Positions 12,983 through 23,015 of a stretch of 47,309 nucleotides of DNA are shown here, piece by piece. Both the position numbers and the translations under genes were made by a program. Source of the DNA: Clostridia bacterium (GTDB lineage Bacteria > Bacillota > Clostridia > Oscillospirales > CAG-272); contig JAFTIL010000097.1 in the NCBI GenBank assembly GCA_017456905.1, forward strand, positions 1 to 47,309. Reading direction: 5' to 3'. Position 1 is the first letter of the stretch, and each line of letters starts with the position of its first letter. A model generated the notes under the pieces. It did no database searches and was not told the origin of the DNA. It was given only the letters and a program-made list of their open reading frames with translations.

Positions 12983-13446
12983 GGATCGGACACGGTTACG
13001 ACGTTCACCGCCTTGTAGAAGGCAGAAAATTGATTCTCGGCGGTGTGGATATTCCTTATGAGAGAGGTCTGTTGGGACATTCCGATGCTGACGTGTTGGT
13101 TCACGCCGTAATGGATGCCTTGCTGGGTGCCATGGGAGCGCCAGACATCGGTCAGCTTTTTCCCGACAAGGATCCTGCTTACAAGGGCGCTGACAGCATG
13201 GTTTTGCTTTCCCGCGTGGCAGAGCTTATGAAAGAAAAGGATTATACCTTGGGCAATCTGGATGCTACCATCTTGGCCCAGGCCCCTAAGCTTTCACCGC
13301 ATATCCCCGCCATGAAGGAAAACATCGCCCGCGTATTAGGTGTTTCTGTGGAGCAGGTCAACGTCAAGGCCACCACCGAAGAACATTTGGGATTTACAGG
13401 CAGCGGAGAAGGTATGGCGGCACACGCAGTTTGCCTGCTGGTATGA
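12979..13446 (+). CDS. ispF: 2-C-methyl-D-erythritol 2,4-cyclodiphosphate synthase
   Basis: IspF cyclises CDP-ME 2-phosphate to MEcPP with release of CMP. The 155-residue trimeric enzyme has the metal-site Asp8 and His10 in GYDVHRL, His in [10 protein letters not shown] (about 34-43) and the [12 protein letters not shown] loop. The terminal [20 protein letters not shown] holds the nucleotide-contact region. The start overlaps the ispD stop (ATGA), so translation is coupled; the intermediate enzyme IspE is not encoded here. Confidence 0.97.
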
Positions 13447-13627
13447 TCCAAGGGGGCATCTCCTAAAAAGACACCCCCACACAGTACCCACCGCACACGC
13501 CCATTCCCACTTCCCTGTCCTTGATTTCTCCCCGTGTACGGGGTGGCACGAACAGCCACATTCTATTTTATGACATCATTCCCTGTTTGTTGACAGGATC
13601 CCCAATTTATGAAAGGACGGTACAGCC
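13447..13627. other. Intergenic region between ispF and rpe
   Basis: This 181-nt gap is the longest inside the tyrS-rpe gene run. It holds a 6-bp hairpin CCCCGT/ACGGGG (13530-13543). A TTGACA at 13590-13595 has no matching -10, so I cannot call a promoter. No small gene is convincing. Confidence 0.5.
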
Positions 13628-14299
13628 ATGTTTTATATTGCACCTTCCCTCTTGGCCGCTGATTTTTCTGATCTCAAGGGCGAGATCAAGCGTATGGAAG
13701 AAGCAGGCGCAAACTATCTGCACCTGGATGTGATGGACGGACATTTCGTTCCCAACATCAGCTTTGGTGCGGGCGTCATTTCCTCTATCCGTAAACATAC
13801 CCAGCTCATTTTCGACGTACATCTCATGATCAGCGATCCCCTCAAATACGTGGACAGCTTTATCAAGGCGGGGGCTGATATCATCACCTTTCATTATGAA
13901 TGCTCTGATCACCCCATGGATATCCTGAAAGAGATCAAAGCTAAGCACATTCCTTGCGGCATTGCCATCTCTCCCAGAACGCCTGCAGAAGCTGTGATCC
14001 CCTTCGTCGGGGTGGCTGACATGATCCTCGTCATGACGGTAGAGCCCGGCTTTGGCGGACAGTCCTTCATGCCCGAGTGTCTTGATAAGGTGCGCGTGCT
14101 TCGTCGTGAGGCGCTGGCTCGCGGCATCGACCAGCATATTGAGGTAGACGGCGGTATCGGCGGCGACAACGCAGCCCATTGCACCGAAGCGGGCGCTAAC
14201 ATTCTGGTGGCGGGATCTGCGCTTTTCAAAAGCAAGAAGCCCAAAACCATCATGCAACAGATGAGAATGGCGGCCAAGGAGCATCCTTTCCTGGGCTGA
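13628..14299 (+). CDS. rpe: Ribulose-phosphate 3-epimerase
   Basis: Rpe interconverts ribulose 5-phosphate and xylulose 5-phosphate through a metal-bound enediolate in a TIM barrel. The 223-residue length is normal. Metal-site residues are visible: His32 and Asp34 in LHLDVMDGHFVPN, His65 in DVHLMI, and the Asp of VDGGI near residue 175. The phosphate loop MTVEPGFGGQSF is intact. AAAGGA lies upstream of the ATG. It ends the long co-directional gene run and is followed by a strong terminator. Confidence 0.97.
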   Translation: MFYIAPSLLAADFSDLKGEIKRMEEAGANYLHLDVMDGHFVPNISFGAGVISSIRKHTQLIFDVHLMISDPLKYVDSFIKAGADIITFHYECSDHPMDILKEIKAKHIPCGIAISPRTPAEAVIPFVGVADMILVMTVEPGFGGQSFMPECLDKVRVLRREALARGIDQHIEVDGGIGGDNAAHCTEAGANILVAGSALFKSKKPKTIMQQMRMAAKEHPFLG

Positions 14300-14306
14300 T
14301 TAACGT

Positions 14307-14338
14307 AAAGGTCGGACTTTTGAGAGTCCGACCTTTTT
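14307..14338. terminator. Terminator between convergent rpe and ATPase genes
   Basis: A perfect 12-bp stem AAAGGTCGGACT/AGTCCGACCTTT with a 6-nt loop runs into a T-tract on the plus strand. It lies 7 nt after rpe and 6 nt before the end of the minus-strand ATPase gene, and can serve rpe; in the minus direction it has only a short T-run. Confidence 0.85.
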
Positions 14339-14343
14339 GCGTA

Positions 14344-17118
14344 TCAATAACCTTCCTTGTGACCTCTGAGCCGCCACCATAGCTTGCGGATAAGTTCGGC
14401 CGGGAACACGAGCAAAGACAGCCCGCAGGTCAGTCCCAATTCCCCAGGGGTCAAGGGCGCCGTTCTGAGTACGGCACCGCCCACGTAAACGAACAAGACC
14501 TGGATGACCAGCACAGCGGTCATCACAAGGCAGAAGGTCTTATTCTTAGCAAGTCCTGCGCCAAGGCGCAGACGATCGGTACGGCAACTGAAGCAGTTGA
14601 ACACCGAGGAGAAAATAAAGAGGGCGAAAAAGGCTGTGAGCAGATAGATCTGATCTTCCCCGGTGCGGAAGGATGTGGAGATGAAGGGCCATTTGAGAAA
14701 CAGCAGGCACAAAGCTACTGTAAAACCGCCGAGACAAAGGATCTGGTGCTTCATATAGCCGTTGAGGATGGGCTCATCCCGCCGTTTCGGGGGCTCCTCC
14801 ATATAGGATGCCAGCGGTGCTTCCCCCGCAAAGGCAAGGCCGCCCAGGGTATCCATGATCAGGTTGATCCATAGCATCTGCACCACCGTCACAGGCTCGT
14901 CGATGCCAATGAAGGGACAGATCATGGTCACGGCCATGGCACAGAAATTCATGGTGAGCTGGAGGGTAATAAACTTACGGATGGATTTGAAAATGGTACG
15001 CCCATATAGGACGGCGCGGGTGATAGAGGAAAGATTATTATCCATGATGATGATATCCCCCGCGTCCTTGGCGACTTGAGTCCCAGCCCCCATGGCAAAG
15101 CCCACGTCGGCTCGTTTTAAGGCGGGGGCATCGTTGATGCCGTCACCCGTCATACCTACCACCAGCTCAGCCTCCTGGGCAATACGCACCAGGCGGCTTT
15201 TATCCGTGGGCAAGGCTCTGGCAATGACTCCAATATGCGGAAGTTCGTTTTTGATCTCATCATCGCTCATGCGTGACAGCTCCGCGCTATCCAGAACGCG
15301 GTTCACTTTGCCGTCGATGATCCCACAAGACGAGGCAATGGCGCGGGCGGTGTCCTTGTTATCTCCCGTCATCATGACCACGTGGATACCCGCCCGTTTC
15401 AAGGTCTGCACCGAGCCGTAAGCCTCAGAGCGAAGCTTATCCTTAAGGATCACGAGGCATATGACCGTCAACGCACCCCAAAGACCTTGTTCTGCCTGGG
15501 CTGCTGAGGGAAGACGGCCCTCCCCATCGGTTGCCGTAGCCACCATGAGCACTCGTTCACCCGCGGAGGTCATATCCTTGATCTTCTCCACAAGCTCCCC
15601 CTGACTGACAACCATTCGTCTGCCTTCCTTATCATAAGAATGGGTCACGCAGGGCACCAGCCGTTCGGGTGCGCCCTTAACATACAATCGCTCTCCCTGC
15701 TCTGTTCTGACACGTACTGCCGAGAGCTTGCGGTTACTGTCAAAGGGGAGCTTCCACATGACCTCTGTATGTTTGGGCCGTGCTTCCTTTTGCACATAGG
15801 TGAGTAATGCTCTGTCGGTGGCGTTGCCGCCGATGGCGCCTCGGGTGGCGCTGTCCCCAATGAATCCCAAGGTAGCTGAGGAATTCAAATGTGCTGACAG
15901 GATCAGCGCCTCGGCGGCGGCAGGGGCTTTTTTCTTGAAATCGCTGATGGTTTCAAATACTTCCCCCGAAGCGAGAAGCACACGCCCTACGCTGAGCTTT
16001 CCTTCTGTCAGAGTACCCGTTTTATCAGTAAACAGGACATTCATGCTCCCTGCCGCCTCAATGCCCGCGGGCTTACGCACCAGCACCTTATCCTTGACCA
16101 TTTTTTTGATGTTGGAGGACAGCACCACGGCGATCATCATGGGAAGTCCCTCGGGGACGGCCACCACCAAGACGGTAAGCCCCAGGGTCAAAGCAGAAAA
16201 GAGCTGTGGCCAAAGATAACGCCAATTCGTCAGCTTGGAAAGCATGACGGCGGCATCAAAACCGCTGTCGAAGACAAAGGCGTTGATGAGATAAATGACA
16301 GCCACCATCCCCGCCGCCAGATATCCGAGGAAGCTGATCTGCTTGGCCAGATCCGACAAACGGCGCTTCAAGGGACTCTCTCTGGTATCCTCCTGCACCT
16401 CGGCTGAGATCTGCCCGAGGAAGGTCTTGTCTCCCACGGTTTTTACTTTCATTGTCCCCTGCCCTGACAGCACGGTGCAACCGCGAAAGAGGGCGGCGGG
16501 ATGATCGGGCGTGGGTGCATCCTTTAACAAAGCGGGATGCTTTTTGATCTCGCGGCTCTCCCCCGTCATGGCAGATTGATCCACCCGCAGGTTTCCAGAG
16601 ATCAGTTCTCCGTCGGCGGGGATCATTTCACCCGCTTCCAGAAGCACCACGTCGTTGACCACCACGTCCCCGTGGGGGATCTGACAGATCACCGACTCCC
16701 CCGTCTCCCCCATTCTTCTCATCACACGGCTTGATGTCTTGCTGCATTCCTCTGAAAGACGGGCGAAGGCACGCTCCGAGCCGTATTCGGACAGGGTGGA
16801 AATGAGGGTTGCCAGGAACACGGCCAGGGCGATGCCGATAGTCTCGGGCCAATCGGTCCCGCCTTGAAAGGCAAAGATCAAATTCAGTCCCAAGGCCACC
16901 AGCAAAATGCGGATGATGGGGTCTCCTAAATTGGAGAGGAACTGTTTCAAAAAGCTTTTCGGAGGCTTTACGGACAGGTGATTGGAGCCGTACTGTTTAC
17001 GGCTCTCTTCTACTTCGCGAAGGGAGAGTGGACATGGTGATGAGGACGATGTCGAATGCTCTGCAGACGTAGGTTGTGAGATGCGATGATAGGAGATAGA
17101 GCGAGGGGCGGTCTTCAT
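14344..17118 (-). CDS. Calcium-type cation-translocating P-type ATPase (P2 family)
   Basis: This 924-residue pump probably exports Ca2+ using ATP. The start at 17118 is chosen for AGAAAGGA 10 nt upstream; longer frames lack a ribosome site. A cation-ATPase N-terminal domain (PLSLREVEESRKQYGSN) is followed by an actuator domain with MTGES. The TM4 ion-site motif VPEGLPM is near residue 320. The phosphorylated Asp365 lies in DKTGTLTEG. The hinge motif TGDGINDAP is at 657-665, and a C-terminal membrane domain holds about six segments. A short C-terminal tail (KLWWRLRGHKEGY) lacks a calmodulin-like extension. PEGLP and the domain order fit the PMCA/SERCA-like group, so Ca2+ is likely but Mn2+ cannot be excluded. 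The N-terminal ~50 residues are Ser-rich and unlike the family. Confidence 0.93.
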   Translation of the reverse strand: MKTAPRSISYHRISQPTSAEHSTSSSSPCPLSLREVEESRKQYGSNHLSVKPPKSFLKQFLSNLGDPIIRILLVALGLNLIFAFQGGTDWPETIGIALAVFLATLISTLSEYGSERAFARLSEECSKTSSRVMRRMGETGESVICQIPHGDVVVNDVVLLEAGEMIPADGELISGNLRVDQSAMTGESREIKKHPALLKDAPTPDHPAALFRGCTVLSGQGTMKVKTVGDKTFLGQISAEVQEDTRESPLKRRLSDLAKQISFLGYLAAGMVAVIYLINAFVFDSGFDAAVMLSKLTNWRYLWPQLFSALTLGLTVLVVAVPEGLPMMIAVVLSSNIKKMVKDKVLVRKPAGIEAAGSMNVLFTDKTGTLTEGKLSVGRVLLASGEVFETISDFKKKAPAAAEALILSAHLNSSATLGFIGDSATRGAIGGNATDRALLTYVQKEARPKHTEVMWKLPFDSNRKLSAVRVRTEQGERLYVKGAPERLVPCVTHSYDKEGRRMVVSQGELVEKIKDMTSAGERVLMVATATDGEGRLPSAAQAEQGLWGALTVICLVILKDKLRSEAYGSVQTLKRAGIHVVMMTGDNKDTARAIASSCGIIDGKVNRVLDSAELSRMSDDEIKNELPHIGVIARALPTDKSRLVRIAQEAELVVGMTGDGINDAPALKRADVGFAMGAGTQVAKDAGDIIIMDNNLSSITRAVLYGRTIFKSIRKFITLQLTMNFCAMAVTMICPFIGIDEPVTVVQMLWINLIMDTLGGLAFAGEAPLASYMEEPPKRRDEPILNGYMKHQILCLGGFTVALCLLFLKWPFISTSFRTGEDQIYLLTAFFALFIFSSVFNCFSCRTDRLRLGAGLAKNKTFCLVMTAVLVIQVLFVYVGGAVLRTAPLTPGELGLTCGLSLLVFPAELIRKLWWRLRGHKEGY

Positions 17119-17204
17119 ACAGAGGGCATCCTTTCTTTTTAAGATATCTGCTCTACTATATGACGGGATGGGGATTTTCATGACCCCAAGGTTAGAGTCC
17201 TCCA

Positions 17205-17233
17205 TTGACTTTCTTGGGAAAATATGATACACT
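17205..17233 (+). promoter_or_regulatory. Putative promoter of the ECF sigma operon
   Basis: TTGACT (17205-17210) and TACACT (17228-17233) are 17 nt apart. This is a housekeeping-type match; I see no separate ECF-type promoter that would show autoregulation. Confidence 0.5.
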
Positions 17234-17315
17234 ATTTTTAAATCATTGGCCGATTTTCAAAATTATTTCGTGTATACCTATAGAAGGATCACATCTTTCA
17301 CGAAAGGAGAGGCTT

Positions 17316-17858
17316 ATGCAAGACCACGAAATCATATCTTTGTATTTTGACCGCAACGAGCAGGCTATCACAGAGTCTGACAAAAAATATGGGGCTTACT
17401 GCTTTTCTGTGTCTATGAATATACTGGCGTCCCGTCCCGATGCCGAAGAGTGCATCAACGACACTTGGATGCGCGCCTGGGGTGCCATGCCGCCGCACAG
17501 ACCCAACAATTTAAAAACCTTTCTTGGGAAGATCACCCGAAATCTTTCCATTGACCGTCTTCGCAAGCGCTCCCGCCGGGCGGAGCTGGAGTTGACGGTA
17601 CTGATGTCCGAGTTGGAAGAGGCGGTCACCCTGTCCGACGATACTGACGAAAACACCCTCACTTCTCTGTTCGACGATTTTTTGCGGGGGCTCCCTGCCC
17701 TTGACCGCCGTTTATTCGTAGGACGGTACTGGTATGGCTATCGAGTGGCCTTTTTGGCCGACAAAACGGGGATGACCCCTAACGCGGTGTCCCACCGCAT
17801 CCGTCGGGTACGAGAGGCTTTTCGGGCATATCTCGAGAAAAGGGGGTACACGGTATGA
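17316..17858 (+). CDS. ECF-type RNA polymerase sigma factor
   Basis: The protein has 180 residues from ATG 17316, which has AAAGGAGAGG 7 nt upstream. Sigma region 2 is seen in ILASRPDAEECINDTWMRAW and FLGKITRNLSIDRLRKRSRR (about residues 32-90). Region 4 with its helix-turn-helix follows in RRLFVGRYWYGYRVAFLADK and the TPNAVSHRIRRVREAFR segment (about 128-172). It lacks regions 1 and 3, as expected for ECF factors. The stop overlaps the next gene by ATGA, the usual arrangement with a cognate anti-sigma factor. The regulon is not apparent; glycan genes elsewhere in the window are possible targets (inference). Confidence 0.93.
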   Translation: MQDHEIISLYFDRNEQAITESDKKYGAYCFSVSMNILASRPDAEECINDTWMRAWGAMPPHRPNNLKTFLGKITRNLSIDRLRKRSRRAELELTVLMSELEEAVTLSDDTDENTLTSLFDDFLRGLPALDRRLFVGRYWYGYRVAFLADKTGMTPNAVSHRIRRVREAFRAYLEKRGYTV

Positions 17859-19087
17859 AGGGTGAATTGGTATTTAAAAGAATGACAAATATCGAGGATA
17901 GCTTCATTGAGGAGGCTGACTTCGGTCTTGACGAGGGACTACTTGCGCCTACCTTTACCCAAAAGCTTGGGAATTTCTTCACTTCGGGTTTGGGCGTGGC
18001 TGTGATCTGCGGGGTGCTGGGACTGAGTATTTTCGGTGCTATCCTTTGGTCGGGTCAGCAGGATCCCATCATTCCGCCCATTTCGACGGTTGAGAGTGAA
18101 GCAGAGACCGAGGCCGAGGCTACCGAGGCAGAGACGGAGACTATGGCAGAGACAGAACGTGAGGTTGCGACCGAAACAGAAACCGTCACGGAGACTGAGA
18201 CCGAGACAGAATATGAAACGAAATTTGAACTGGTCACCGACGAGAACGGTGATGCTTTATTTGCGCCGGTGGGTAACGTAGAATTAACGATTGCCCCTGA
18301 GATCGGACGAAAAGTCATCTTTGACGGAGATTTATCGGACTGGCAAAGTTTTACCTATCGCAAGCTGACGATCTCCCCCAACAATGCGGTATCCCACGCG
18401 GATGAGGGGTTCGCCTCTGCGATGCCCTTGGATTTCCTCATGACTACCTATGTGGCGGCGGATCAGCATTGGCTGTATTTGGGCTTTAACGTGGTGGATG
18501 ACAGTTTTGTTTACGCATCAAAGGACACTTCCTTTGACGGGGATGCCATTACCCTTTCTTTTGATATGGATTACATGGTAAAGCATTTTGTCGCTCAGGA
18601 TCCCGCACTGTTTCCTGAAGACAAAATGCCTATATCCTATACCTTCTCCTGCAGCAAGGATGGCGAAGCGTTGGTATTTTTAAGGGATCATACGGATGGA
18701 CTCAATGAGAATAACTACAATGGTTATATCTCCATGGCCTCTTCCGGAACGGTGCAAGGAGCGGCAAGAAAAACAGCCACAGGCTGGTCGGCTGAGTTTG
18801 CCATCAAATGGGAACAGCTATATGAGGACGGTACATGGAAATGCTATGCTGACGGTTACGAAATCCTCGTAGGCCAAAATGATCCGCTTCAGATCGGTTG
18901 CGCTGTGACCTATATCGCTCGAAACGATATAGAAAGCCGCAGCATTTCCTGGATGGCCACCACCACGAAGGGAGCTATCACGCAAACCTATGAGGATTGC
19001 GGAATAAATTTTTATATTCTACACTCGGATTTGGACAAAAATCCAATTCAATGCAAAGGTATAAAGTATTTATGTAGTTGCTATTAA
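17855..19087 (+). CDS. Membrane-anchored putative anti-sigma factor with CBM9-like ectodomain
   Basis: This 410-residue protein has a cytoplasmic N-terminus of ~40 residues containing NIEDSFIEEAD. That motif resembles proteins encoded next to ECF factors in Clostridia (from memory). A single membrane segment at about 45-66 (LGVAVICGVLGLSIFGAIL) puts the rest outside. Residues 78-122 are an extended Thr/Glu repeat spacer. From about 145 a beta-rich domain follows the CBM9/DOMON layout: FDGDLSDWQ, HWLYLGFNVVDD, DGDAITLSFDMD, TGWSAEFAIKWEQL. No zinc-type HxxxCxxC anti-sigma motif is present. The overlap with the sigma gene supports a regulatory pair in which sugar binding outside alters sigma release. 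Known analogues with sugar-binding ectodomains are the clostridial SigI/RsgI systems, which use a different sigma type. The sensor role is inference. Confidence 0.75.
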   Translation: MKGELVFKRMTNIEDSFIEEADFGLDEGLLAPTFTQKLGNFFTSGLGVAVICGVLGLSIFGAILWSGQQDPIIPPISTVESEAETEAEATEAETETMAETEREVATETETVTETETETEYETKFELVTDENGDALFAPVGNVELTIAPEIGRKVIFDGDLSDWQSFTYRKLTISPNNAVSHADEGFASAMPLDFLMTTYVAADQHWLYLGFNVVDDSFVYASKDTSFDGDAITLSFDMDYMVKHFVAQDPALFPEDKMPISYTFSCSKDGEALVFLRDHTDGLNENNYNGYISMASSGTVQGAARKTATGWSAEFAIKWEQLYEDGTWKCYADGYEILVGQNDPLQIGCAVTYIARNDIESRSISWMATTTKGAITQTYEDCGINFYILHSDLDKNPIQCKGIKYLCSCY

Positions 19088-19094
19088 GAAAAAC

Positions 19095-19126
19095 AACCTC
19101 CCCAAGCCACACAGCTTGGGGAGGTT
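19095..19126. terminator. Bidirectional terminator between the anti-sigma gene and hisS
   Basis: A perfect 13-bp stem AACCTCCCCAAGC/GCTTGGGGAGGTT encloses a 6-nt loop. Reading on the minus strand it is followed by TTGTTTTTCTT, so it is chiefly the hisS terminator; the plus-strand T-run is short. Confidence 0.85.
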
Positions 19127-19134
19127 TCGCTATA

Positions 19135-20409
19135 TTACAGTTTCGTCTCTATCTCGTCGGGGTATCTGACGTCGATGAAGGTGCTATACCCTTCTGCCTC
19201 CAGCTTCTGCTTCTGGAAGCCCACGTTCTTGTTCATCTTCTGGACAAGGACGACCTTGCCGGCTGCGCGAAGATCATTACACTTGCATTGGAGGGTGGCT
19301 ACGTCGCCCGAGGTGAAGGCCTTGCCGTAAAGAACAGCCACCTTCTCGCGGGTGCCGTCTGCCTTGAACTTCTTGTCAAGCAAGGCGCCGACCAGACGCT
19401 CAAAGCCGATGGAGAAGCCGCAGGCGCAGGTAGGGGTGCCCGTAAAGTTGCCGATCATGTTGTCGTAACGGCCGCCGCCTGCGATGGAAGAGCCCTTGAA
19501 ATCCTCGGACTTGATCTCAAAGATGGTGCCTGTGTAGTAACCCATACCGCGCACCAGGGTGGGATCGAAGGAGAGATTGAATTTTCCGCCCGACATAAGA
19601 GCCACGTTGGCAAAGATCTGACGGATATTGTCAGCCACGCCGGGTTCCATGGCGTCACCAAAGGCTTCCTCCACGTAGGAGAAACGATCCTCGGCGGTCA
19701 TGAAGCCGTGGAAGATATCCATATAGGTATTGACAGCGGCTTCTTCGCAGCCGGATTCCAGCAGCTCCTTCTTAACGCCGTCCTCACCGATCTTGTCGTA
19801 CTTATCCAGGATGATGAAGACCTTGTTATAGTCCTCCTCGGCAAAGCCTGCTTTCTTGGCCATGCCCTTGAGGATGCGGCGGTCGTTGACCATGACGGTA
19901 TTACCCTTGACGCCCACGCTGTCGAGGAACAAGGACGTGACGTAGATCAGCTCGCTCTCGGCAGTGTTGTCGGGGTTGCCCAAAATGTCGATGTCGCACT
20001 GGGTGAACTGGCGATATCTACCCTTCTGGGGGCGGTCAGCGCGCCAAACAGAGCCCACCTGCAGAGCCTTGAAGGGCATGGGGAGCTGGCCCGAGTTATT
20101 GGCAAAGTAGCGGGACAGGGGCACGGTGAGGTCGTAACGCATACCCGAGTCGCAGAGATCGTCGAAAGAGGCGGTCTCAATGGATTCACTTAGCTTTTCA
20201 CCACGCTTCAGTACCTTGAAAATGAGCTTTTCATTCTCGCCGCCCTGGTTGCTGGTGAGGTTTTCGATACGCTCCATGCAGGGGGTCTCGATCTGGGTAA
20301 ATCCGAAGGAGGTGTAGATATACTTGAGCTTGGACAGAAGGTATTCACGGATCTCCATTTCGGCGGGGAGAATGTCGCGCATACCCTTGACAGTTTCTTT
20401 GATAAACAT
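19135..20409 (-). CDS. hisS: Histidyl-tRNA synthetase
   Basis: HisS charges tRNA-His in the cytoplasm. The 424-residue class II enzyme starts with MRDILPAEM, the family opening. Motif 2 is VWRADRPQKGRYRQF with CDIDI, the HisA signatures LVRGMGYYTGTIFEI and GGGRYDNMIG are present, and motif 3 is GFSIGFERL. The C-terminal anticodon-binding domain runs from about residue 325 (VAVLYGK). AAAGGAAG precedes the ATG. It is monocistronic, divergent from the GH78 gene. No T-box is visible in the short leader. Confidence 0.98.
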   Translation of the reverse strand: MFIKETVKGMRDILPAEMEIREYLLSKLKYIYTSFGFTQIETPCMERIENLTSNQGGENEKLIFKVLKRGEKLSESIETASFDDLCDSGMRYDLTVPLSRYFANNSGQLPMPFKALQVGSVWRADRPQKGRYRQFTQCDIDILGNPDNTAESELIYVTSLFLDSVGVKGNTVMVNDRRILKGMAKKAGFAEEDYNKVFIILDKYDKIGEDGVKKELLESGCEEAAVNTYMDIFHGFMTAEDRFSYVEEAFGDAMEPGVADNIRQIFANVALMSGGKFNLSFDPTLVRGMGYYTGTIFEIKSEDFKGSSIAGGGRYDNMIGNFTGTPTCACGFSIGFERLVGALLDKKFKADGTREKVAVLYGKAFTSGDVATLQCKCNDLRAAGKVVLVQKMNKNVGFQKQKLEAEGYSTFIDVRYPDEIETKL

Positions 20410-20509
20410 AGGCTTTTACTTCCTTTGCATTGGGATATCATTTAATTAAGTTATTATAGCACAAACCAAGAAAAAATGCAAGTGTTTTTGCTTTATTTTC
20501 CTCAGGCTC

Positions 20510-20538
20510 TTGCCAGGAAATGTAAAATATGCTATAAT
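20510..20538 (+). promoter_or_regulatory. Promoter of the GH78-like gene
   Basis: TTGCCA (20510-20515), 17 nt, TATAAT (20533-20538), about 32 nt before the start codon. A TATAAT on the minus strand (20453-20458) probably serves the divergent hisS, with a poor -35. Confidence 0.75.
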
Positions 20539-20570
20539 ATGCTTATCTTACCCTAAAGTGAGGATCTTAT

Positions 20571-23015
20571 ATGAATACCTACACCTTTCAGAAAGCCAAA
20601 CGCATCTTTTATCCGCTGAGCGAGGCACAGGCGGCGGAGCGAAACAAGGAAGCCGTCAACCACTACTGCTTCTATAAAGAGTTTCATCTTACCGAGGACG
20701 CTACGGATGCCATATTTGCCTTGACAGGGCGCAATATGTACCGCCTGTATATCAACGGAGAGCTCGTCATGCACGGTCCTGCCCGCACGACACACGGCTA
20801 CTGCCGTGTGGATGACGTGGACGTATCCCTGTACCTGCAAGAGGGACTTAACTCCATTGGTGTGGAGATCATGGTCTACGGCGACGTGTATAACGGCTAC
20901 TCCAACGATTGCACCTTAGAGTCGGGGATGTTCATCGGTGAACTGACAGTGGACGGCAAAGTGGTGTGCGCCACGGGCGTTGATGATTGGACGGTGTTGC
21001 GTCTGTCCGCTCGTGCTCCTCACGCTCAGCGCATTTCTCACAGCCGAGAGGCCGCTGAGGTTTATTACCTTGACGATGAATATGATTCTTGGAAAACGGG
21101 TCGTGCTGACTTTGTTTCGGCTGCCCTCATGGACGAATCCGACACCCCCGTGTATCTGACCCATGTGGCTTTGCGGCCCACCTTGAATGAGCACCCCATC
21201 ACCCAACTTGTGGAATACGGTTCCTGTTTCATCGAAAAGGACAAGCCGTTGACCTCCCTGTTCTACGAGAAACATTCTCCCTATTACGCCTCCCTCTCGG
21301 AACGTCCCTTGGAGGATTGCCGCCGCACGGTCGAGCGTGCCTTCAACGGCATCAGCGTCAAGCGGGAGAGCGACATCCTTTCTGTTGTTGGCGAGGGAGA
21401 CAAGTTTGTTCTCTTTGACGGTGTGGAGAGCCGCGTAGGCTTTATCGGTATTGAGTTCAGTTGTGCTCACGATGGTATTGTTGACATCGTTCACAGCGAG
21501 CTGTTGAATCCTGACGGTTCCATTCCCTACTATCACGACGTGGTAACAAGGCTCCATGTCAAAGCTGGGAAGGCACATAGTTTTATCACGATGGAGCCCT
21601 GTCTTGCACGGTACATCAAGATTTATTTCCGCGGCACGGGAGACGTGAAGCTGTATAGTCTCTCTATGCTGGACTACGCCTACCCCGACGAGATGCGCTC
21701 GGGCTTCCAATGCTCGGACGATAACATCAACCGTCTGTATAACGCCGCCAAGAAGACCCTCATCCTCAACACCATGGACATTTTCATGGACTGTCCCGAG
21801 CGTGAGCGCGGCGGTTGGCTCTGCGACTCTCTTTGGACGGCGCGAGCGGCCCGGATGATGCTGTCCGACACCCGTGTGGAAAAGGAGTTCATTGAAAACT
21901 TCCTGCTCACCCCTGCCGAGGGGATGTTCCACGCCTTTTTCCCCGAGGCTTATCCCGGCCAAAAGCCCGACTTCAAGGGCATGACGGGCATCACCACCTG
22001 GACCTTCTGGCTCATGTGTCAGCTTACGGAATACGTGGAGCGCACGGGCGACTTTGCCTTCCGTGACACCTACGCCGACCGCGTGGCGGCCTTTGTCAAA
22101 GGAAGTTATGATTTTATCGGTCAGAGCGGACTCTTGGAAAATCTGCCTTGGTTGTTCATCGATTGGTCCATGTCCAACTGGGGCGAGTATCAACAGCCCA
22201 TCTCCACCCCTGCCAACGCCCTGTACGCCTATATGCTGACGGATCTCGGTCGGCTGTACGGTCGTGCTGACTGGTGCGAGCAAGGCGAAAAGATGAGACG
22301 AATCCTCCGCGAGGCCATTCTGGCCGAAAGCGAACTGGGTATGAATACCCTGACCACCTTCCCAGACAGCTTTGAAATGGGTGGTGACGGCAGACTTCAC
22401 GGTCGAGGCAAGGTTTCCGAGTCGGGTATGGCCACCGCCCTGTGGGCAGGCCTGTTCCTTCCCGGCGAGGCACCCCTCATGGAAGACATCGTTATCAACC
22501 GCATGGGTCCCTCACCCACCTATGCGACTGACCCCATGATCGGCAAAAGCCAGCTCTTCATCGGGCTTTGCATCCGTCTTGATCTGTTGACACGCATGGG
22601 TGCCTACGACAAGATGTACCAAGATATGCTGGCCATCTACGAGCCTCAACTCCGCGAAGGCCCCGGCACACTATGGGAAAATCAGATCATTGATACCTCC
22701 TCCCGCTGTCACGGATTTACCGCTCACGCGGGCGTGCATCTCATGCGGGACGTATTGGGCATCGGGTTCCCCGTCTATGGCGAGGACGGCTCCAAGCGTA
22801 TCACTATCGCCCCCCACATGGAGGGTCTACGCTGGGCACGCGGTACGATGGAGCTTTCCGAGGGCATTGTGTCGGTATTTTGGAAGTACGATGGTAGATC
22901 CTTTACGCTGCATGCCACAGTCCCCGCAGGCTTTGAGGGTGACGTGATCCTGCCTCCTGAGGCCAAGGCCTTGGACAAGGGCTTGGTAGATATTCAGATT
23001 TATACACAGCTTTGA
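20571..23015 (+). CDS. GH78-type alpha-L-rhamnosidase-like glycoside hydrolase
   Basis: This 814-residue protein has the architecture of bacterial GH78 enzymes. N-terminal beta-sandwich modules (about 1-370, for example NMYRLYINGELVMHGPAR) precede an (alpha/alpha)6 barrel. The catalytic loop DCPERERGGWLCD begins at Asp407 and matches the DCPxRxxxGW signature with its acidic residues. The barrel continues with WLFIDWSMSN, and a C-terminal beta domain holds GFPVYGEDGSKRITIAPHM. No signal peptide is present, so it should act in the cytoplasm on imported rhamnosides. Substrate specificity within GH78 cannot be told. It has its own promoter and terminator. No rhamnose catabolic gene or transporter is next to it. 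Confidence 0.82.
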   Translation: MNTYTFQKAKRIFYPLSEAQAAERNKEAVNHYCFYKEFHLTEDATDAIFALTGRNMYRLYINGELVMHGPARTTHGYCRVDDVDVSLYLQEGLNSIGVEIMVYGDVYNGYSNDCTLESGMFIGELTVDGKVVCATGVDDWTVLRLSARAPHAQRISHSREAAEVYYLDDEYDSWKTGRADFVSAALMDESDTPVYLTHVALRPTLNEHPITQLVEYGSCFIEKDKPLTSLFYEKHSPYYASLSERPLEDCRRTVERAFNGISVKRESDILSVVGEGDKFVLFDGVESRVGFIGIEFSCAHDGIVDIVHSELLNPDGSIPYYHDVVTRLHVKAGKAHSFITMEPCLARYIKIYFRGTGDVKLYSLSMLDYAYPDEMRSGFQCSDDNINRLYNAAKKTLILNTMDIFMDCPERERGGWLCDSLWTARAARMMLSDTRVEKEFIENFLLTPAEGMFHAFFPEAYPGQKPDFKGMTGITTWTFWLMCQLTEYVERTGDFAFRDTYADRVAAFVKGSYDFIGQSGLLENLPWLFIDWSMSNWGEYQQPISTPANALYAYMLTDLGRLYGRADWCEQGEKMRRILREAILAESELGMNTLTTFPDSFEMGGDGRLHGRGKVSESGMATALWAGLFLPGEAPLMEDIVINRMGPSPTYATDPMIGKSQLFIGLCIRLDLLTRMGAYDKMYQDMLAIYEPQLREGPGTLWENQIIDTSSRCHGFTAHAGVHLMRDVLGIGFPVYGEDGSKRITIAPHMEGLRWARGTMELSEGIVSVFWKYDGRSFTLHATVPAGFEGDVILPPEAKALDKGLVDIQIYTQL

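Follow-up and report, generated by a model that had tools for sequence, protein, structure and literature searches.

A predicted ECF sigma factor/transmembrane anti-sigma pair with a CBM9-like ectodomain, one of about 25 related pairs in a Clostridia genome

The described systems closest in design to the locus studied here are the SigI/RsgI pairs of cellulosome producers, Clostridium thermocellum among them. In these, several paralogous sigma/anti-sigma operons are present per genome, the anti-sigma factor crosses the membrane once and carries extracytoplasmic sensory modules, the operons are autoregulated, and RsgI undergoes intramembrane proteolysis by RseP (PMC6056542, PMC12203970). In this work we have analyzed a stretch of 47,309 nucleotides from a Clostridia bacterium of the CAG-272 lineage (Oscillospirales; assembly GCA_017456905.1, contig JAFTIL010000097.1, positions 1 to 47,309), hereafter the window, in which positions 17,316 to 19,087 encode an extracytoplasmic function (ECF) sigma factor followed by a single-pass membrane protein whose ectodomain resembles carbohydrate-binding module family 9 (CBM9). 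The sigma factor is a different one: SigI is described without sigma4 (PMC6056542), whereas that of the window has sigma2 and sigma4. Since sigma4 is present and the membrane protein gave no RsgI-type match in Pfam or NCBIfam, membership of SigI/RsgI was ruled out, in agreement with a first-pass annotation of this DNA made from the sequence alone. Unlike in RsgI, several ectodomains of the present family are not carbohydrate-binding modules (CBMs), and orthologues exchange them.

Among other systems that invite comparison, RsiV/SigV is not known to us as an exchangeable array, and a C. thermocellum anti-sigma factor bearing a glycoside hydrolase family 5 (GH5) domain is presumably Rsi24C, paired with the ECF-like sigma24C. 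This GH5-bearing protein has an intracellular N-terminal anti-sigma part and an extracellular domain that binds cellulose but is catalytically dead (PMC3526467), in whose place the window protein has a CBM9-like domain. RsiV/SigV resembles the arrangement proposed here in combining an ECF sigma factor with an anti-sigma factor that is itself the receptor and is activated by intramembrane proteolysis (PMC5014341, PMC9044953); unlike the window protein, RsiV is a lysozyme receptor. In Streptomyces, ECF52 (SCO4117) ties ECF signalling to an extracytoplasmic carbohydrate-binding domain (PMC8999054, PMC10766802), but it is actinobacterial, its parts are fused within the sigma protein and, unlike the window pair, it has a zinc finger domain (PMC5826349). 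Given the GH5-bearing protein and ECF52, the idea of a glycan-sensing anti-sigma factor is already known. As far as the literature searched shows, the new part is a short-segment module with exchangeable ectodomains, together with its CBM9-like member; judging from titles and abstract openings, no report of an exchangeable-ectodomain ECF anti-sigma array or of a CBM9 anti-sigma factor was found.

The reading that we favour, with a probability of about 0.66, is that the window genes form an autoregulated pair of ECF sigma factor and transmembrane anti-sigma factor, class II-like and with an exchangeable CBM9-like sensor, and that the genome has about 25 such pairs. Pairing, constant module, diversity and replacement of ectodomains, the free relatives of the window ectodomain and the shared promoter were computed from the genomes. 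The features of the pair are the following:

17316..17858, + strand: ECF sigma gene, 180 aa, sigma2 and sigma4 only (Pfam PF04542 and PF08281, NCBIfam TIGR02937)
17855..19087, + strand: predicted transmembrane anti-sigma gene, 410 aa
17855..17858, + strand: ATGA stop/start overlap read from the sequence (ATG 17855-17857, TGA 17856-17858)
17303..17309, + strand: ribosome-binding site AAAGGAG, as read from the sequence
17855..17986, + strand: cytoplasmic segment, residues 1-44, with a common motif around F..m..I.D..I.EA (alignment A1)
17987..18055, + strand: transmembrane helix, residues ~45-67, from a hydropathy scan; the columns of A1 that are invariant or almost so fall here
18086..18226, + strand: Thr/Glu-rich spacer, residues 78-124, T+E = 68%
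18287..19069, + strand: CBM9-like ectodomain, residues ~145-405, with kinship to CBM9 and a match to profile A2 at 3.3e-92, the window copy being row 1 of A2
17247..17284, + strand: probable ECF-type autoregulatory promoter, TGGCCGATT, 13-nt spacer, CGTGTATACCTATAGA, with the sigma ATG 31 nt further

The sigma factor matched Sigma70_r2 (1.7e-11) and Sigma70_r4_2 (6.2e-07) in Pfam and TIGR02937 in NCBIfam (2.3e-17), all above cut-off, and by having only sigma2 and sigma4 it belongs to the ECF group (group IV). The membrane protein displayed a single hydrophobic stretch (residues ~38-68 in the hydropathy scan) and neither Cys nor His in residues 1-44, and gave no Pfam match at E up to 1 and no Pfam or NCBIfam family above cut-off. 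The first-pass annotation had thus described the locus correctly as regards the two open reading frames with their ATGA overlap, the short cytoplasmic part, the one helix, the Thr/Glu spacer, the absence of a zinc anti-sigma motif and, with an ECF sigma factor beside a single-pass partner carrying a CBM9-like ectodomain, the layout of a transmembrane anti-sigma factor.

Sigma factor, cytoplasmic segment and transmembrane helix travel together. When the whole membrane protein was searched against the window's own genome (G000), 19 matches were obtained: the window itself, a free ectodomain at C30:19192, and 17 that cover the N-terminus, each of these 17 lying beside a sigma gene. The genome holds 25 sigma genes of the window type, each followed at -4 to +2 nt by a membrane protein bearing the module. 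The copy on contig C108 is an edge duplicate of that on C9 and was dropped, leaving 24 distinct pairs for the 24-row and 74-pair sets used below; equal-score matches on C9/C108 and on C3/C120 suggest redundancy of this assembly, whose contamination is 8.8%. With a profile of the 24 N-termini, covering the cytoplasmic segment and transmembrane helix (A1), the module was found in 10 of 12 genomes of the genus, with 25 matches in the own genome. Matches were fetched from four congeners chosen for completeness and low contamination (17, 20, 12 and 1 from G001, G008, G009 and G011, respectively; in total 50 of the 124 outside the own genome), and a sigma gene lay directly upstream in 50/50, with a 4-nt overlap in 47. 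The expectation that homologues of the membrane protein would never be free of a sigma gene was therefore borne out for the N-terminal module (25/25 and 50/50). At E 1e-6, A1 matched 6 of 146 genomes in a family sample, including three non-congeneric genomes that gave a single match each, and in the class the own genome only, among 245. The window-type sigma factor extended more widely: at E 1e-15 it was found in 44 genomes of a family sample of 59, G021 alone having 19 copies. The same layout with a short N-terminus recurred in all 20 sigma neighbourhoods that were taken from the listed matches in four other genera, some of them cut by contig ends. These N-termini matched A1 at an hhalign probability of 97.6, and their profile (A6) matched 34 of 196 class genomes at E 1e-4, counting module matches only. 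The pair is therefore not the lone, little-described oddity that had been supposed, but one of about 25 in its genome and of a wider family. Three sigma homologues contained one in-frame TGA each (G022:C24:6162-6716, G067:C55:11536-12090 and G033:C5:24662-25213).

A class II-like mode of inhibition is suggested by the shortness of the cytoplasmic segment and its lack of Cys and His. Class I anti-sigma factors have a cytoplasmic domain of at least 50 residues, often with Hx3Cx2C, and domains below 50 residues have been set aside as possible class II (PMC7406223); with 44 residues before the helix the window protein falls under the latter length, and class I (ASDI) and zinc anti-sigma factors were ruled out for it. 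In CnrY, of the class II pair CnrY/CnrH, two helices contact sigma4 and sigma2 (PMC7406223). The window segment shares its shortness but differs in phylum and in the sensing part, and no sequence match was found. The inhibitory mechanism need not be new, as had been supposed, since class II anti-sigma factors such as CnrY also use a short segment. We infer sigma binding and inhibition, ligand, proteolytic steps and target genes as follows. The 44-residue segment would hold the sigma factor at the membrane in the manner of a short, CnrY-like anti-sigma factor and not of the zinc type, and the CBM9-like domain, on its stiff Thr/Glu stalk, would be the extracellular sensor, probably for a carbohydrate or a cell-surface glycan. 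Binding or pulling would lead to cleavage outside and then within the membrane (the own genome encodes a homologue of site-2 protease; PF02163, 1.5e-55), and the sigma factor so freed would transcribe its own operon from the GATT-N13-CGT type promoter along with a few other genes, probably for envelope lipoproteins.

A shared ECF-type promoter is present before most of the sigma genes. The bipartite motif found upstream of the 24 sigma genes, TGAAAGATT and CGTCTTAATAGGTGAA separated by 13-14 nt, reached a log-likelihood of 196, as compared to 55.8-66.5 in four shuffles, made by moving blocks of 2 bases rather than as full dinucleotide shuffles. The model was trained on these 24 upstreams, the window's included; outside the training set, in related species, 28 of the 50 congener upstreams scored above 15 bits vs. 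0 of 250 shuffles. These data make autoregulation of the sigma operon likely. Scanning the own-genome loci and the window above 15 bits gave 24 hits, of which 22 lay before sigma genes (19 genes after merging overlaps, all training members or the C108 duplicate) and the remaining two were weak, at 16 bits. From 19 sites, including that of the window, two sequence models were built and run on the whole own genome; they recovered, as they must, the 19 training sites and the C108 duplicate, together with five further sites on C15 (E 9.7e-4), C7 (0.022), C78 (0.027), C72 (0.045) and C79:15373 (0.18), the cut being set at E 1, which lets through roughly one hit per search by chance. In the bipartite model these five scored 17.2-23.8 bits. 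Four of them (C15, C7, C72 and C79) lie 32-150 nt before a lipoprotein-like gene, and that on C78 lies before a gene of unknown kind. Possible members of a regulon are the loci L081, L087, L089 and L100 (C15:31616, C7:41359, C72:10471 and C79:15373 of the own genome). Compared with the anti-sigma ectodomains, the proteins downstream of the extra sites gave nothing in phmmer at E up to 1 and a single 31-residue match in BLAST (E 0.063).

Kinship of the window ectodomain to CBM9 is well supported through intermediates. Four of its relatives were compared with Pfam CBM9_1; two of them matched above cut-off (L068, 1.9e-11; L067, 1.4e-08), a third fell below it (L064, 0.02) and the fourth gave no match (L071). 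The profile A2, built from 12 rows of ectodomain relatives with the window copy included, matched the CBM9-2 module of a xylanase (1i82) at 8.7e-05 and, weakly, CBM74/Sas6 chains (0.012 and 0.015). Because the relatives match CBM9_1 and the profile matches 1i82, we consider the domain CBM9-like; of the CBM9/DOMON-type ectodomain first proposed, the CBM9 kinship stood, whereas the window protein by itself has no Pfam match. In the A2/1i82 alignment one Trp of 1i82 faces an aromatic residue in 11 of the 12 rows, which in the window protein is Phe227, and the column of Trp366 holds Trp in 7 of 12 rows. We take two tryptophans of CBM9-2 to form its sugar clamp and Trp366 to match the second of them. 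A single scan of genome contigs yielded one distant relative (L009, 3457-6849, uncultured Lentisphaerae RUG673), a large protein, glycosidase-like by eye, with the CBM9-like domain at its end. No relative of the window ectodomain was found in viral contigs.

Relatives of this ectodomain were found mostly apart from sigma factors. A search of 196 genomes of the family located them in 12 genomes at 18 places, the window counted, and by eye the anti-sigma N-terminus is absent from the proteins at the other 17. Within the genus, A2 gave 26 matches in 11 of 12 genomes (window copy counted; 1-6 places per genome). At 25 of these places the protein has a signal-peptide-like start by eye and no match to the anti-sigma module in the locus, the loci inspected reaching at most ~1.5 kb each side of the match; the window copy alone combines the module with a directly upstream sigma gene. 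For the ectodomain, then, homologues free of a sigma gene do occur, contrary to what had been anticipated, and the CBM9-like version of the sigma/module pair appeared at one of 26 genus places. With 25 of 26 relatives standing alone, the window sensor probably comes from a surface protein common in the genus, a direction of recruitment that is inferred. Most of the stand-alone proteins end in a C-terminal helix and a KKKD-like tail, mostly with a spacer before it. This stand-alone family, which includes C30:19087-19902 of the own genome (L010, L070, L175) and 24 further genus places, looks surface-anchored. At one place (G003 C59; L179/L062) a stand-alone CBM9-like gene is followed on its own strand by a sigma gene, possibly by chance.

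The ectodomains of the 74 pairs fell into 26 groups without BLAST similarity between groups; grouping was by single linkage (BLAST E 1e-5 and 60 residues), so that distant kinship is missed and chaining is possible. Ectodomains have been replaced between close orthologues. Thus, in the 72 comparisons of sigma factors more than 62% identical, ectodomain similarity was absent in 40 and present in 32, three of the 40 being between short-tailed proteins with little ectodomain (C4, L117, L140). At the locus shared by contig C30 of the own genome and C113 of G008, sigma factors are 93% identical and the flanks align at 84%, over 1082 nt to the end of the transmembrane codons and over 1259 nt from just before the next pair; the ectodomain DNA in between does not align. 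One supported clade of the sigma tree, obtained by a quick method, comprises C131, L138, L116 and L137 with ectodomain groups e07, e04, e01 and e07, respectively, and the whole tree requires a minimum of 32 group changes for 26 groups, the least possible being 25. Pfam, given 20 of the other 23 distinct membrane proteins of the own genome, recognized RHS repeats in one, BspA-type LRR_5 above cut-off in four and DUF4625 and MalQ_N above cut-off in 1/20, with marginal matches in three; 11 of the 20 had no match at E 0.01. Ten membrane proteins of other genera gave Beta_propel in three, LRR_5 in one and nothing in six.

The transmembrane-coding DNA may be the crossover point of this exchange. Exact matches of at least 18 nt between paralogues amounted to 11.3 per kb there (22 matches) vs. 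3.0 per kb in the sigma genes (39), and fourfold-site identity was 0.449 vs. 0.410 in the 24 paralogues and 0.513 vs. 0.421 in 12 chosen ones. These values are suggestive only, since conservation of the transmembrane protein sequence explains part of the excess of matches and the overall fourfold-site excess is small, so that recombination at this point rests on few pairs. Two tandem pairs at L015 (C30:120779-125360 of the own genome) share an identical 83-nt transmembrane-coding stretch, with sigma genes 59% identical, a possible case of gene conversion. We put forward tentatively, at less than even odds, that the genus carries a diversifying array of ~20-25 sensors, in which a constant socket, made up of sigma factor, cytoplasmic segment and transmembrane helix, would have had its ectodomain repeatedly replaced by recombination at the transmembrane-coding stretch, from other sensors or from the bacterium's own surface proteins, with all pairs on a common promoter class. 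Many surface signals could then converge on one response, which raises the question whether and how signals stay separate among ~25 sigma factors whose promoters are almost the same. The array and its exchange of sensors are of more interest than the single CBM9-like pair. If the proposal is true, these bacteria use large ECF sigma sets with interchangeable sensor heads, a counterpart of the SigI/RsgI sets that is built on a different sigma family and draws on more kinds of ectodomain; swapping a head and reading the promoter would offer a route from unknown surface domains to their ligands. The CBM9-like case would illustrate one route to a new sensor, the joining of a surface protein's domain to the socket.

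Several results weigh against the reading of the window pair as an autoregulated, glycan-sensing anti-sigma system. Its own promoter is weak, at 14.5 bits among the weaker sites and below the 15-bit cut; it was found with model R2 at E 0.023, but as a site within the training set of R2. In other genera the motif is poorly supported (5 of 20 above 12 bits vs. 1 of 100 shuffles). Identities of sigma factor and cytoplasmic segment co-vary over the 74 pairs (Mantel r 0.52, p 0.001), but those of sigma factor and transmembrane helix do so almost as strongly (r 0.46), and within the own genome alone the two correlations are weaker (0.33 and 0.37), which indicates co-inheritance and not contact. The N-terminal profile found no solved anti-sigma factor in the PDB, the best match being a meaningless one to NKR-5-3B (0.029), and the presence of a site-2 protease says little, since 14 of 14 control genomes also have one. 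The first presumed clamp Trp of CBM9-2 aligns with Phe227 in the window protein, no gene recognisably concerned with glycans follows any of the five extra promoter sites, and the window operon contains no polysaccharide-utilisation genes.

The last of these points bear on the alternative that stands best, which keeps the anti-sigma factor but has its CBM9-like domain sense, instead of a soluble or dietary glycan, the cell's own envelope or matrix, a neighbouring protein or mechanical stress, and so monitor the surface structure of which its stand-alone relatives form part. We regard this as a serious possibility, not far short of even odds. It would suit the stand-alone surface proteins at 25 of 26 genus places, the LRR, RHS-type and further domains of other pairs with no obvious link to sugars, the four candidate promoters before lipoprotein-like genes and a locus lacking a sugar-utilisation operon, whereas three observations count against it: the ectodomain profile matches a CBM9 module that truly binds sugar and, more weakly, CBM74/Sas6 chains; the Lentisphaerae protein is glycosidase-like; and the platform position in the alignment holds an aromatic residue in 11 of the 12 rows.

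Rather unlikely, in our view, is a second alternative, by which inhibition is real but the sigma factor is released by conformational change or titration instead of stepwise proteolysis. No dedicated site-1 protease is known here, no search having been aimed at one, and so short a cytoplasmic segment could conceivably detach undegraded. On the other hand, Gram-positive single-pass anti-sigma factors with large ectodomains, such as RsiV and RsgI, are described as using intramembrane proteolysis (PMC9044953, PMC12203970), and the genome has the site-2 protease, common as it is to the controls. It is improbable that the sigma factor is the dedicated regulator of a membrane protein that acts as an activator or as a co-expressed surface effector: ectodomains are diverse and some adhesin-like, and inhibition is a prediction, but a conserved cytoplasmic segment lies directly downstream of the sigma gene in every case retrieved (25 + 20 reached via the sigma gene, 50 via the module), free surface relatives of the ectodomain lack that segment, and a sigma factor with such a segment is the usual anti-sigma arrangement. 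A chimeric contig joining a sigma/anti-sigma head to a surface-protein tail is hardly credible despite a fusion unique in the genus sample (1/26), 8.8% contamination and the duplicated stretches C9/C108 and C3/C120, since the gene is one open frame with the domain ending near the stop, paralogous fusions with other ectodomains are the rule in the genome, and the ectodomain shares just 40% identity with the free copy of this genome and so was not misjoined from there.

The window pair stands alone on the chromosome segment, with a P-type ATPase gene upstream on the opposite strand and a convergent gene downstream, which from its sequence we take to be hisS. One further feature lies between the convergent genes:

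19095..19126, strand not assigned: strong hairpin where the anti-sigma and hisS genes converge, annotated as terminator-like for the - strand

Rfam gave 0 matches within window positions 13000-21000, thus no local riboswitch. The only sugar context of the locus lies beyond hisS, on the strand of the pair, where positions 20571-23015 encode a glycosidase with alpha-L-rhamnosidase domains (PF17389, PF17390).

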